A DNA stretch of 55,798 nt, from positions 1-55,798 of the forward strand of contig DAHXNH010000331.1 of NCBI GenBank assembly GCA_027365485.1. The letters are read 5' to 3'. A program made the position numbers and the translations under genes. The notes beneath the pieces were generated by a model, which saw nothing but the letters and a program-made list of their open reading frames with translations, had not been told where the DNA came from and did no database searches. Shown here in pieces: positions 43,370-46,473 of this stretch; the stretch's first letter is position 1, and each line of letters starts with the position of its first letter. Origin of the DNA: Clostridiales bacterium (GTDB lineage Bacteria > Bacillota > Sulfobacillia > Sulfobacillales > Sulfobacillaceae).

Positions 43370-44929
43370 TCACGGGGACACTTCCACGGATTCAGGGGAG
43401 AGTTGGTGGGACGTGGGAAACCACTCGATTCCCGGGTTTTTCTCTTGAGTCCAACGAACCGAAAACTCGTCCGGAAAGAGCATCACCAGCCTATCGTCGG
43501 CGTCTCGCACCAAACTCGTGGTGTGGCTTCGCTGCACCAAGTCGGGGTTCTGGACGGAAAGCCAACGGGCATGCTCGTAGGGCAATGACGTTTTATTGAA
43601 GGTGGCGCCGTACTCGGATTGCATTCGATATTCGAACACTTCGAATTGGAGGCGGCCGACAAAACCCAGGACGATATCCTCGGTGCGGTTGACCACACGA
43701 AAGACCTGCACGGCTCCTTCTTCGGCAAGTTGTTGTAAGCCCTTGTGAAATTGTTTGTGTTTTAACGTATCGGTCACTGAGACAGCCACGAAATGTTCGG
43801 GGGAAAATTGAGGCAAGGGATCGTAACGGAAACTACCCCCTTCGGAAAGCGTATCTCCGATCCGAAAGTAGCCGGGATCAAAGAGCCCGATGATATCGCC
43901 GGGATAGGCCACATCCACGATGGCTCGCTCCTGAGCAAAGAAGTGTTGCGGTTGGGCCATCGTAATCGTTCGGCCCAGCCGTTCATGACGGACGCTCATG
44001 CCCCGTTCGAAACGACCGGATCCGACTCGGAGAAATGCCACCCGATCTCGATGTTGAGGATTCATATTGGCTTGAATTTTGAAAATGAAACCAGAAAATT
44101 CTTTGCTCTCCGGATCCAGCATCCCTTGGTTGGTGTGTCTAGCTCCCGGACACGGGGCCAGCGCTAAGAATTGGTCGAGAAATGCGGCCACGCCAAAGTT
44201 TGCTAAAGCGCTACCGAAGAAGACCGGGGTGAGTTCGCCGCGGCTCACGTGATCGAGATTAAATACATCCCCAGCTTCTTCTAACAGTTGCAATTCTTCG
44301 CTCACCCGGTCCGGAATTGGGGAGAGATCCGATTCGGGTTTTGGGTAGCGTTCCCAGAGGCCTCGGCCGCGGTCATAGATGCCGAGAAAGTCGTGTCCCA
44401 TACCCGAAGGCCAATTCATCGGATAGGTGTGAATGCCCAACACCGACTCGATTTCTTGGAGCAACTCAAAGGGGTCTCGACCGTCACGATCCAATTTGTT
44501 GATAAACGTGAAAATAGGAATGTGGCGCATGCGACACACTTGGAATAATTTTAAAGTTTGCGGCTCGATGCCTTTAGCCGCATCGATGAGCATGACCGCG
44601 CTGTCGGCGGCGGTCAAGGTGCGATAGGTGTCTTCGCTAAAATCTTCATGGCCCGGGGTGTCAAGCAGATTCACCTGATAGTGGCGATACTCGAATTGGA
44701 GGACAGTCGACGTCACCGAGATCCCACGCTTTTTCTCGATTTCCATCCAATCGGAAGTCGCCTTGCGGCTGAGTCGCTTGCCCTTCACTACGCCCGCTTG
44801 ATGGATTGCGCCTCCAAACAAGAGCAGTTTTTCGGTCAGCGTGGTCTTGCCTGCGTCCGGATGTGAGATGATAGCAAATGTTCGCCTTCGCGCTATTTCC
44901 TCGCGAAGCGATTGAGAACTGGTATCCAT
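43370..44929 (-). CDS. prfC: Peptide chain release factor 3
   Basis: RF3 is the GTPase that removes RF1 or RF2 from the ribosome after termination. The 519-residue product has G1 SHPDAGKTT (22-30), the family-specific VKGKRLSRKATSDWMEIEKKRGISV, G3 DTPGHEDFSEDTYR, G4 NKLDRDGRDP and C-terminal translation-factor domains. GGAAGGAA precedes ATG 44929. It has its own promoter. RF3 is patchily distributed in Firmicutes, so its presence is informative but not odd. Confidence 0.95.
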   Translation of the reverse strand: MDTSSQSLREEIARRRTFAIISHPDAGKTTLTEKLLLFGGAIHQAGVVKGKRLSRKATSDWMEIEKKRGISVTSTVLQFEYRHYQVNLLDTPGHEDFSEDTYRTLTAADSAVMLIDAAKGIEPQTLKLFQVCRMRHIPIFTFINKLDRDGRDPFELLQEIESVLGIHTYPMNWPSGMGHDFLGIYDRGRGLWERYPKPESDLSPIPDRVSEELQLLEEAGDVFNLDHVSRGELTPVFFGSALANFGVAAFLDQFLALAPCPGARHTNQGMLDPESKEFSGFIFKIQANMNPQHRDRVAFLRVGSGRFERGMSVRHERLGRTITMAQPQHFFAQERAIVDVAYPGDIIGLFDPGYFRIGDTLSEGGSFRYDPLPQFSPEHFVAVSVTDTLKHKQFHKGLQQLAEEGAVQVFRVVNRTEDIVLGFVGRLQFEVFEYRMQSEYGATFNKTSLPYEHARWLSVQNPDLVQRSHTTSLVRDADDRLVMLFPDEFSVRWTQEKNPGIEWFPTSHQLSPESVEVSP

Positions 44930-44971
44930 ACTTGAGGTTCCTTCCGTTCAGGAGCGTACGTTATCTTGCCT

Positions 44972-45000
44972 TTTATAACATAACTTGAGGTCAGCGGCAA
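44972..45000 (-). promoter_or_regulatory. Promoter of prfC
   Basis: On the minus strand TTGCCG (45000-44995) and TATAAA (44977-44972) are 17 bases apart, about 43 bases before the prfC start. Confidence 0.65.
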
Positions 45001-45026
45001 GCTAGCATGGCTGAGCCCGACGGTTA

Positions 45027-45055
45027 CTGACGTACGGCGGACGTTTCGTTATAAT
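45027..45055 (+). promoter_or_regulatory. Promoter of the frameshifted membrane gene
   Basis: A perfect TATAAT lies at 45050-45055 and CTGACG at 45027-45032, 17 bases apart. An open frame continues upstream from 45213 to an ATG at 45054, but that ATG is inside the -10 and cannot be used. Confidence 0.65.
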
Positions 45056-45205
45056 GGGCCCCAGAGTCCGCCTCTCTGGAGCCGAAATGGCGGGGATTGG
45101 CCGTCGGGCCGTCGTGGATGAGGGTTCGGTGGGGGCCTTAACGGGTAGTTGGGATCCAGAGGCACCCTTTGACTCGCCAAGACCGTTATCGTGGATAATG
45201 GGAGG
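45056..45205 (+). other. Structured 5' leader of unknown type
   Basis: About 150 transcribed bases precede the membrane-protein gene. They contain hairpin CCAGAG/CTCTGG (45061-45066 with 45074-45079), a long-range pairing GGCCCC/GGGGCC (45057-45062 with 45132-45137) and further GC-rich repeats (GGCCGTCGGGCCGTC). I match it to no riboswitch class I know. It could be a riboswitch or simply GC-rich leader. Confidence 0.4.
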
Positions 45206-45212
45206 ACACTTG

Positions 45213-46168
45213 ATGACGAGTACAGAATTGACAAATATGCCTATGTCATTTCGACCCCGTATTGGACGGTGGCTGGCTGTCCTTCTTCTCATGATCGCGA
45301 TGGCCGCGGTCGCTCAAATATTTCATGTCCGAACGATTATTTTCCCTGAGACGGCGGCCATGGCGCTGGGCGTTTGGGTGCTGCGCGACCCGGAGTGGCT
45401 CAAAAGGCCTTGGCATATTGTGGTGCTACCCAGCGTGTGCGCAGCGCTGAGTGTTTCTTTGAACCATTCGGACCTTCCGGCGATGGTGCGCGAGCTTCTC
45501 ATCTTATGGGTCGTGATGGTCATCCTAACCGTCACGCGGTCCTTTTTGAGTCCGGCAATTTCCGCGGGGATTCTTCCTATTGTTCTGAACATCCATGCGT
45601 GGGTCTTTGTCTATTCGGTGTTTGTGGCGACCGGGGTGATCTGGATCAGTGTGCGCCAACGCGGCGTGGGAGCGAACTGGCCCCCCGAATGGGCCTTCCC
45701 GCCCTGGCGGGCTAATATGGTCTTCGCTATCGTGGCAACCCTCTGGATTGCAGCCGCGGGAATCTTCGGGATTCGCGACGCCGTGCTTCCACCTATCATG
45801 GTATTTTTGTATGGGTCGATGAGGGCTCAACCGAAGGGATGGGGAAATGTTTCCCGAGAGATTGCGGTTTTAATCGTGGCTGCCCTAATGTCGTCGTGGG
45901 GTGTGGCGGTCCTTCATTACCCGATCGCGAGGTAGCCACCCTCTCGCTGACGGCCACGACATTAGCCATGCGAGCCCTTAAGACGTGGGTTCCTCCGGCT
46001 GGTGCGGTCGCCTTGCTTCCGCTCGTCCTTCGGATATCGCCCGTCAGCAAATTTCCCATACTCGTGGCGATATTGACTTTAATTGCCGCGGTGATGGGGT
46101 TTCTCAGTCAACGATGGTCGCCAATCGTAAAGTCGATACGTCCTTCGGACCTCCGGATGGATGGCTAA
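45213..46168 (+). pseudogene. Multi-pass membrane protein, HPP-like C-terminus, split by a frameshift
   Basis: From ATG 45213, with GGGAGG seven bases upstream, 241 codons run to TAG 45935 and encode about seven membrane helices with IIFPETAAMALGVWVLRDPEW. In the frame shifted by -1, open from before 45839 to 46168, the sequence continues as a membrane protein: REVATLSLTATTLAMRALKTWVPPAGAVALLPLVL, which carries a PPAGA...LLP block as in HPP-type membrane proteins. Joining the two near 45905-45935 gives one protein of about 317 residues. A single-base deletion explains it. Function is unknown; transport is a guess from the fold. Confidence 0.7.
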
Positions 46169-46473
46169 AAACCAAAAAGTTAGAAATATCAAGAGAAATG
46201 AAAAATAGTGTGGGAGTGGTAACGGTGGGGTATACGCTATAGAGAATTGGCTGTCGAATGACGACGGATGGCGTTAGCAGGCAGGTACGTGCCTGAATCC
46301 CATGGATTTGCGGCGCCTCCGTTGATCCTGCACGCAGGGCACATTTGACGGATTGGCGCTAAAGCTGTGAGCGTCTCAACACCTTGCTGCATAATAGTTT
46401 CCGAACACCATGGTGTTCTCCTAAAACGCAAACCATGCCCCGCGCACACGATAGGAAACGTGTCGACATTGTG

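Follow-up and report, generated by a model that had tools for sequence, protein, structure and literature searches.

A broken HPP-type gene as a probable decayed cassette in an integron-like system that lacks a canonical IntI

Main

The broken HPP-type membrane-protein gene described here is probably a captured and decayed cassette of an integron-like system of its bacterial family, a system without a canonical IntI and with directly repeated site cores; we assign this reading a probability of roughly 70%. The gene lies in a stretch of 55,798 nucleotides from Sulfobacillaceae, hereafter the window. The genome carrying the window (G000) was compared with a sister genome of the same genus (G001) and with further genomes, designated likewise; contigs and loci carry the prefixes C and L.

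In the scheme that we propose, an Xer-like tyrosine recombinase without the IntI-specific insertion would join DNA modules at TTAACGGGC-(about 7 nt)-GCCYTAAG. A platform would consist, in this order, of the recombinase gene, a promoter with a hairpin, and a site. Cassettes would follow, separated by paired sites A (TTAACGGGGGCG...) and B (TTAACGGGCAGG...) that lie mostly 35 or 56 bases apart in direct orientation, and the platform promoter would drive expression of a cassette inserted at the first site. Action of the recombinase on the sites, movement of the cassettes and the order of events are what we infer from these arrangements. The platform in the window is without a recombinase gene, stands beside prfC and has one recognisable cassette (45138-46273), which is broken in both sister genomes. 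Its features, all on the plus strand, are as follows.

45018-45137, plus strand: 'attI-like' promoter module with homologous copies; elsewhere it starts right after the stop codon of a tyrosine recombinase
45027-45055, plus strand: sigma-70-type promoter CTGACG-17-TATAAT within the module (one occurrence, against 0.2 expected from shuffles)
45058-45082, plus strand: hairpin with 9-nt arms and a 7-nt loop, 8 of 9 pairs formed in the window copy
45138-45162, plus strand: putative head site TTAACGGGTAGT..., a degenerate form of TTAACGGGCAGG, at the end of the homologous module
45200-45206, plus strand: ribosome binding site GGGAGGA ahead of the ATG at 45213, by eye
45213-45935, plus strand: ORF1, first half of the HPP-type membrane protein (240 aa), with its stop behind the frame shift
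45839-46168, plus strand: ORF2, the second frame, with its HPP-like part at 45935-46114
46122-46199, plus strand: putative cassette 3' end, with a second copy (76%) at G000:C80:4826-4895
46219-46238, plus strand: putative tail site A, 16 of 20 positions matching the A consensus
46274-46298, plus strand: putative tail site B, 17 of 20 positions matching the B consensus, 55 bases after A where 35 or 56 is usual

Results

The HPP gene is broken at different places in two genomes

A sequence-only reading of this locus had proposed that two overlapping frames encode halves of one membrane protein behind an intact promoter and ribosome binding site, and this was borne out: the frames are related by a -1 shift and overlap by 97 bases, the promoter matches at 10 of 12 positions, and the ribosome binding site is complete to the eye. 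ORF1 can start at 45054 or at the ATG behind the ribosome binding site, and its stop codon occupies 45933-45935. The half encoded by ORF2 gave an E value of 8.6e-5 against the Pfam family TM_HPP (PF04982), at 22.6 bits and so below the cut-off of 27.2, and the first half of the gene had no match in the PF04982 profile search. That first half does resemble a 172-aa open frame of G047 (E 1.2e-5, 32% identity), which itself reaches 28.7 bits to TM_HPP, above the cut-off, at nearly the same place as the first-half match. A weak hit in G020 appears spurious, since the frames there resemble cytochrome oxidase by eye. The window gene, which is broken, remains under the curated TM_HPP cut-off, with its second half below that threshold and its first half unmatched. 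Compared with the HPP family, its second half is a weak profile match and its first half is like an HPP-like frame, whereas the whole gene is about twice the length of the profile, with two HPP-like halves.

The same locus is present in G001, beside the same prfC, at 94% identity (896 of 956 aligned columns). The earlier reading had recommended a comparison with orthologues for an intact frame; the G001 frame is not intact and is broken elsewhere than in G000, by small gaps and by a deletion of about 200 bases that covers most of the frame overlap. Across 207 comparable codons of the HPP gene, the two genomes differ by 19 synonymous and 25 non-synonymous changes (pN/pS 0.053/0.124), compared with 21 synonymous and 7 non-synonymous changes over 406 codons of the neighbouring prfC (pN/pS 0.007/0.075). 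By these counts, the HPP gene is under weak constraint, with lesions that differ between the genomes. Together, this speaks for decay and against a frameshifting mechanism. Decay, one of the options that the earlier reading had offered, is thus supported by the comparison of the two loci. The single lesion in G000 may be a one-base assembly or base-calling error in that genome alone.

The leader is a repeated promoter-hairpin module

The same reading had assigned the gene a structured RNA leader and suggested a covariance search of it against RNA families. Rfam families matched nowhere in 44920-46250, even at E values up to 5, and the fold of 45055-45215 is ordinary (z = -0.49, with 63 of 200 shuffles folding at least as well); with no Rfam family and an unexceptional fold, an RNA leader or riboswitch was rejected. 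What stands of the claim is the short hairpin at 45058-45082, which is kept in ten module copies; the leader as a whole does not fold unusually. Instead of belonging to the HPP gene, the leader is a repeated promoter module, probably of the cassette system, a feature invisible from the window alone. Over the window, Rfam gave three tRNA matches only, all at 1-224, the first being cut by the contig end.

Searching 61 genomes with 45020-45215 returned two copies in G000, four in G001 and a single match of 22 bases in G035. The module copies lie on C58 of G000 and on C166 (the same locus), C234, C187 and C242 of G001; the best copy outside the same locus has an E value of 5.7e-25 and 84% identity, and the sequence behind the module differs from copy to copy. 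Modules stand behind recombinase ends or relics in G000 (C343, C256, C345, the last a relic by eye, and C58), G001 (C234, C187 and C242) and G013 (C139). In L007, L008, L003, L016 and L017, the C-terminal or decayed end of the recombinase is directly followed by the module, in full or in a shorter form; in L009 (G001 C242), an insertion of about 390 bases separates the two, and in L019 (G001:C121) the recombinase end is present and the module absent.

In ten module copies, a TATAAT-like element is followed at once by the hairpin. Over 8 distinct copies, 64 of 72 hairpin pairs are formed, with two copies set in another register with an 8-nt loop; this count was reached by 63 of 10000 right-arm shuffles, relatedness of the copies being ignored. 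The module ends in TTAACGGGCAGG or a variant thereof.

Paired, directly repeated sites recur across the family

G000 has 46 copies of the 12-mer TTAACGGGCAGG, G001 has 13 and G013 has 7, and the reversed control is absent from all three, on which basis a chance origin was rejected for these genomes. It was matched in 20 of the 61 genomes; the other 17 have one to three copies, about the control level. At up to three mismatches, the companion A-type 20-mer TTAACGGGGGCGTATATGCC has 47 copies in G000, against 1 for the control, and 23 in G001, against 0 for the control. With the same tolerance, the longer variant TAACGGGCMGGWTAGCGACCTAGCA is present in 15 of the 61 genomes, all of the window's family (8 copies in G025, 5 in G028), with a control of 0 in all 61. 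All three assemblies with the abundant 12-mer are in hundreds of contigs each.

By the pattern used, a companion A core was found for only 34 of the 64 listed 12-mer copies. In these pairs, the start-to-start distance from A to B is exactly 35 in 12 cases and exactly 56 in 16, the other six falling within two bases of 56, and the A and B cores repeat TTAACGGG in direct orientation. One place departs from this in an attC-like manner, L052:4914-4964 (G000:C80), where two A-type cores are inverted around a hairpin. Several contigs have runs of 12-mer copies on one strand, 1.4-3.5 kb apart; larger gaps and mixed strands are found too. Among named genomes, 41 stretches matched the site pattern, including six in JAMCVM01, one in JAJZZH01 and two in other Bacillota assemblies (L137 and L163); the remainder, single matches in varied taxa, are taken for chance. 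Five viral stretches match the pattern as well.

A weak head site and a degenerate tail pair flank the HPP gene

The head site of the window was recognised from its position, where the homologous module ends, its score of 18.8 being no better than the background elsewhere in the window (up to 19.5). At the thresholds used, neither strand of the window holds another pair like the tail pair. The tail pair scores 33, where 60 Markov sequences of equal length reached 30 at best, under a spacing tolerance (the usual distance plus or minus one base) that was set after the pair had been seen at 55. Upstream of the tail pair, the 78 bases from 46122 on recur on C80 of G000, where the copy runs into a well-kept A-type site. 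Because the HPP gene lies between the end site of a module and a tail pair, and its 3' end is shared with another stretch, it is best read as a captured cassette, probably acquired before G000 and G001 parted and decaying since.

Flanking sequences switch at the sites

In all, 29 stretches of 0.7-4.2 kb (median 1840 bp) are bounded by sites with a score of 22 or more. These putative cassettes are long, with one to four ORFs of at least 100 aa each; missed sites inflate the lengths. A scan of 58 cassette ORFs of at least 95 aa met 17 Pfam families, among them MFS, NUDIX, HicB, Phd/YefM, peptidase S11, ADP-ribosylglycohydrolase and aspartyl protease. Relative to site direction, 29 ORFs of at least 100 aa run with the site and 27 against it.

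Comparing 82 sites in all 3321 pairs, we found 17 pairs with matching left and unrelated right flanks; two pairs share the right flank only and one shares both. One of the right-only pairs (L093/L114) had to be set aside because 3 bases lie to the left of L114, which leaves one usable pair. The 17 left-sharing pairs form nine groups by our own count, two of which look related by eye. Fourteen pairs were viewed base by base (13 left-sharing and one right-sharing) and 12 were aligned with gaps (11 left-sharing and one right-sharing). Eight of the 12 aligned pairs match on the left over 123-341 bases at 83-100%, up to 0-2 bases before the site, and on the right the match ends after 11-24 bases; G000:L052 and G001:L127, for example, share 189 bases at 99.5% on the left and 12 bases on the right. 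In L104/L126 and L096/L110, the switch falls at site A, suggesting that either core can serve for recombination. The remaining aligned pairs are the one sharing its right flank (128 bases, 84%) and L051/L111, which has no clean switch. The repeated sites and the flank switches at them are strongly supported. Near cassette genes on C234 of G001, L055:2677-2706 gave a single Rfam CRISPR-DR2 match (41.3 bits, cut-off 37), which may be chance.

A distinct Xer-like recombinase accompanies the sites at some loci

Among 154 genomes of the class, a query of 71 C-terminal residues found relatives of the recombinase at E 1e-14 or better in 13, of which all but one belong to the window's family. With this query, G000 and G001 yielded relics or contig-end fragments only, and no intact gene. 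Full-length open frames are present in G028, G025, G014 and G022; the G006 frame is cut by the contig end. For the two recombinases scanned, TIGR02224 (XerC/D-like) was the best NCBIfam profile at 204 and 172 bits, under its cut-off of 335, and the integron-integrase profile TIGR02249 gave 94 and 81 bits in two separate stretches, under its cut-off of 265. The IntI-specific insertion, present in the IntI of G053, is absent from the three recombinases aligned, and in the G028 and G025 proteins the positions R, K, HxxR, H and Y are conserved (judged by eye from the alignment). TIGR02249 was exceeded in none of the 34 family genomes and in one of all 61, namely G053, of another family of the same class, whose integron integrase (G053:C62:9506-10441, L179) scores 373 bits against the cut-off of 265.

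In a tree, five of the recombinases group together with full support, on a long stem and separate from the Xer proteins encoded in G000 and G001; the looser grouping with Xer (81/93) is drawn open, joins between long branches being uncertain. Full-length Xer-type recombinases are encoded in G000 on C201 and C395. On C413 of G000 (L032, L033 and L123), two large tyrosine recombinase frames of 417 and 379 aa lie near each other on a contig that also has cassette sites.

Behind the recombinase end, a TAACGGG site is present in 4 of 12 loci of other genomes (G013, G028, G025 and G008), with a lead-in other than the promoter-hairpin module in G025, G028 and G008. It is absent from about 330 bases behind the frame in the other 8, among which the L044 frame ends elsewhere than at the recombinase's own end. 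The link between recombinase and site is therefore correlative at the sequence level. In a plasmid search with the recombinase end, relatives among the matches listed are all under 60% identity. The truncated recombinase ends of L017 (G000:C256), L018 (G001:C187) and L019 (G001:C121) start at nearly the same point; the sequence there (TTAGCCAC, TAGCCAC or TTATCCAC) resembles the site core, and the bases upstream look alike in L017 and L019. There may be a second crossover point within the recombinase gene. L045 (G129:C193), from another family of the class, has two recombinase ends in a row, each followed by a much-alike stretch of about 330 bases.

Discussion

Alternative readings of the HPP locus itself differ in what they leave unexplained. 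Programmed -1 frameshifting, which would yield a full-length HPP protein from the 97-base overlap of the two frames, is extremely improbable: the sister genome has lost most of that overlap by deletion and has other frame breaks, pN/pS is raised, and no slippery heptamer was seen by eye. The mechanism, which the sequence-only reading had left open, was rejected on the evidence of the sister locus. An ordinary pseudogene, or a one-base error of assembly, in a single-copy HPP gene that has a promoter of its own and coincidental site matches around it would suit the one G000 lesion in an otherwise open 240-codon frame and a head site that is weak on its own. We consider it quite improbable, as copies of the leader (E down to 5.7e-25) precede unrelated genes, the tail pair scores above all 60 controls, the 3' end is common to another stretch running into an A site, and the sister gene is broken at other places.

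Two further alternatives accept the sites and question the system. Host XerC/XerD could use them in trans, as in the pdif modules of Acinetobacter, with the nearby recombinase ends as bystanders; G000 does encode full-length Xer-type recombinases where the platform recombinase survives only as relics, the cassette recombinase groups loosely with Xer, and toxin-antitoxin genes are mentioned in pdif papers. This is unlikely, given that the site lies behind the cassette recombinase in several genomes and that several site runs keep one orientation whereas pdif sites alternate. Alternatively, the TTAACGGG repeats could be transposable element ends or REP-like repeats with a preference for certain places and without any cassette system, which would fit the shortness of the common left segments (123-341 bases) with their different neighbours and the unbiased ORF orientation. 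That the switches fall at the same cores, that the A-B spacing of 35 or 56 is kept (exactly in 28 of 34) and that the 17 Pfam families from the 58 cassette ORFs include no transposase make such repeats a distinctly doubtful explanation.

The decayed-cassette reading places the locus near, and outside, known systems. As in integrons, a tyrosine recombinase gene, a promoter and an attachment site precede site-bounded cassettes that include toxin-antitoxin genes, and exchange takes place at a short core. Of the features that define integrons, site-bounded stretches with flank switches correspond to a tandem array of putatively mobile cassettes, and promoter, hairpin and site behind recombinase ends or relics in G000, G001 and G013 correspond to attI and promoter beside an integrase. 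Unlike in integrons, however, the recombinase is without the additional IntI domain and far below the TIGR02249 cut-off, the A and B cores are direct and not inverted in the 34 copies with a companion (the one inverted place being in L052), and cassette ORFs face both ways. On these three differences, we describe the system as integron-like in its working and not as a member of the integron family.

The pdif modules of Acinetobacter have 28-bp dif-like sites on which host XerC/D act and which alternate in orientation. They share with the present system an Xer-type enzyme and small modules that carry accessory and toxin-antitoxin genes, whereas here the sites form one-orientation runs, have another sequence and are accompanied by a promoter platform. 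As for XerC/XerD dimer resolution, TIGR02224 is the best NCBIfam profile for the cassette recombinase, yet the score is below the 335-bit cut-off and in the tree the protein falls, on a long stem, into a clade of its own next to the Xer proteins from G000 and G001. Integrons are very rare in Firmicutes: the IntegronFinder 2.0 report gives one complete case, Limnochorda pilosa, and a few integrase-less clusters (PMC9024848). The parts of the PMC literature covered, including PMC8618304, PMC9024848, PMC9668308 and PMC8138268, hold no account of the system described here.

Taken more broadly, the data could represent a second, independently assembled gene-capture platform, in which a dedicated Xer-like recombinase and an attachment site with promoter and hairpin are combined with tens of cassette sites per genome, directly repeated sites take the place of folded attC, and variants exist across several genera of one family; we see the odds for this wider claim as about even. 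If true, it would be an unusual route of gene collection in bacteria, integron-like without the integron enzyme, with a compact pair of recombinase and site that is directly testable. A cassette system with tens of sites per genome and no IntI would point to more than one origin of cassette capture, or else to the IntI insertion and folded attC sites being dispensable for it.
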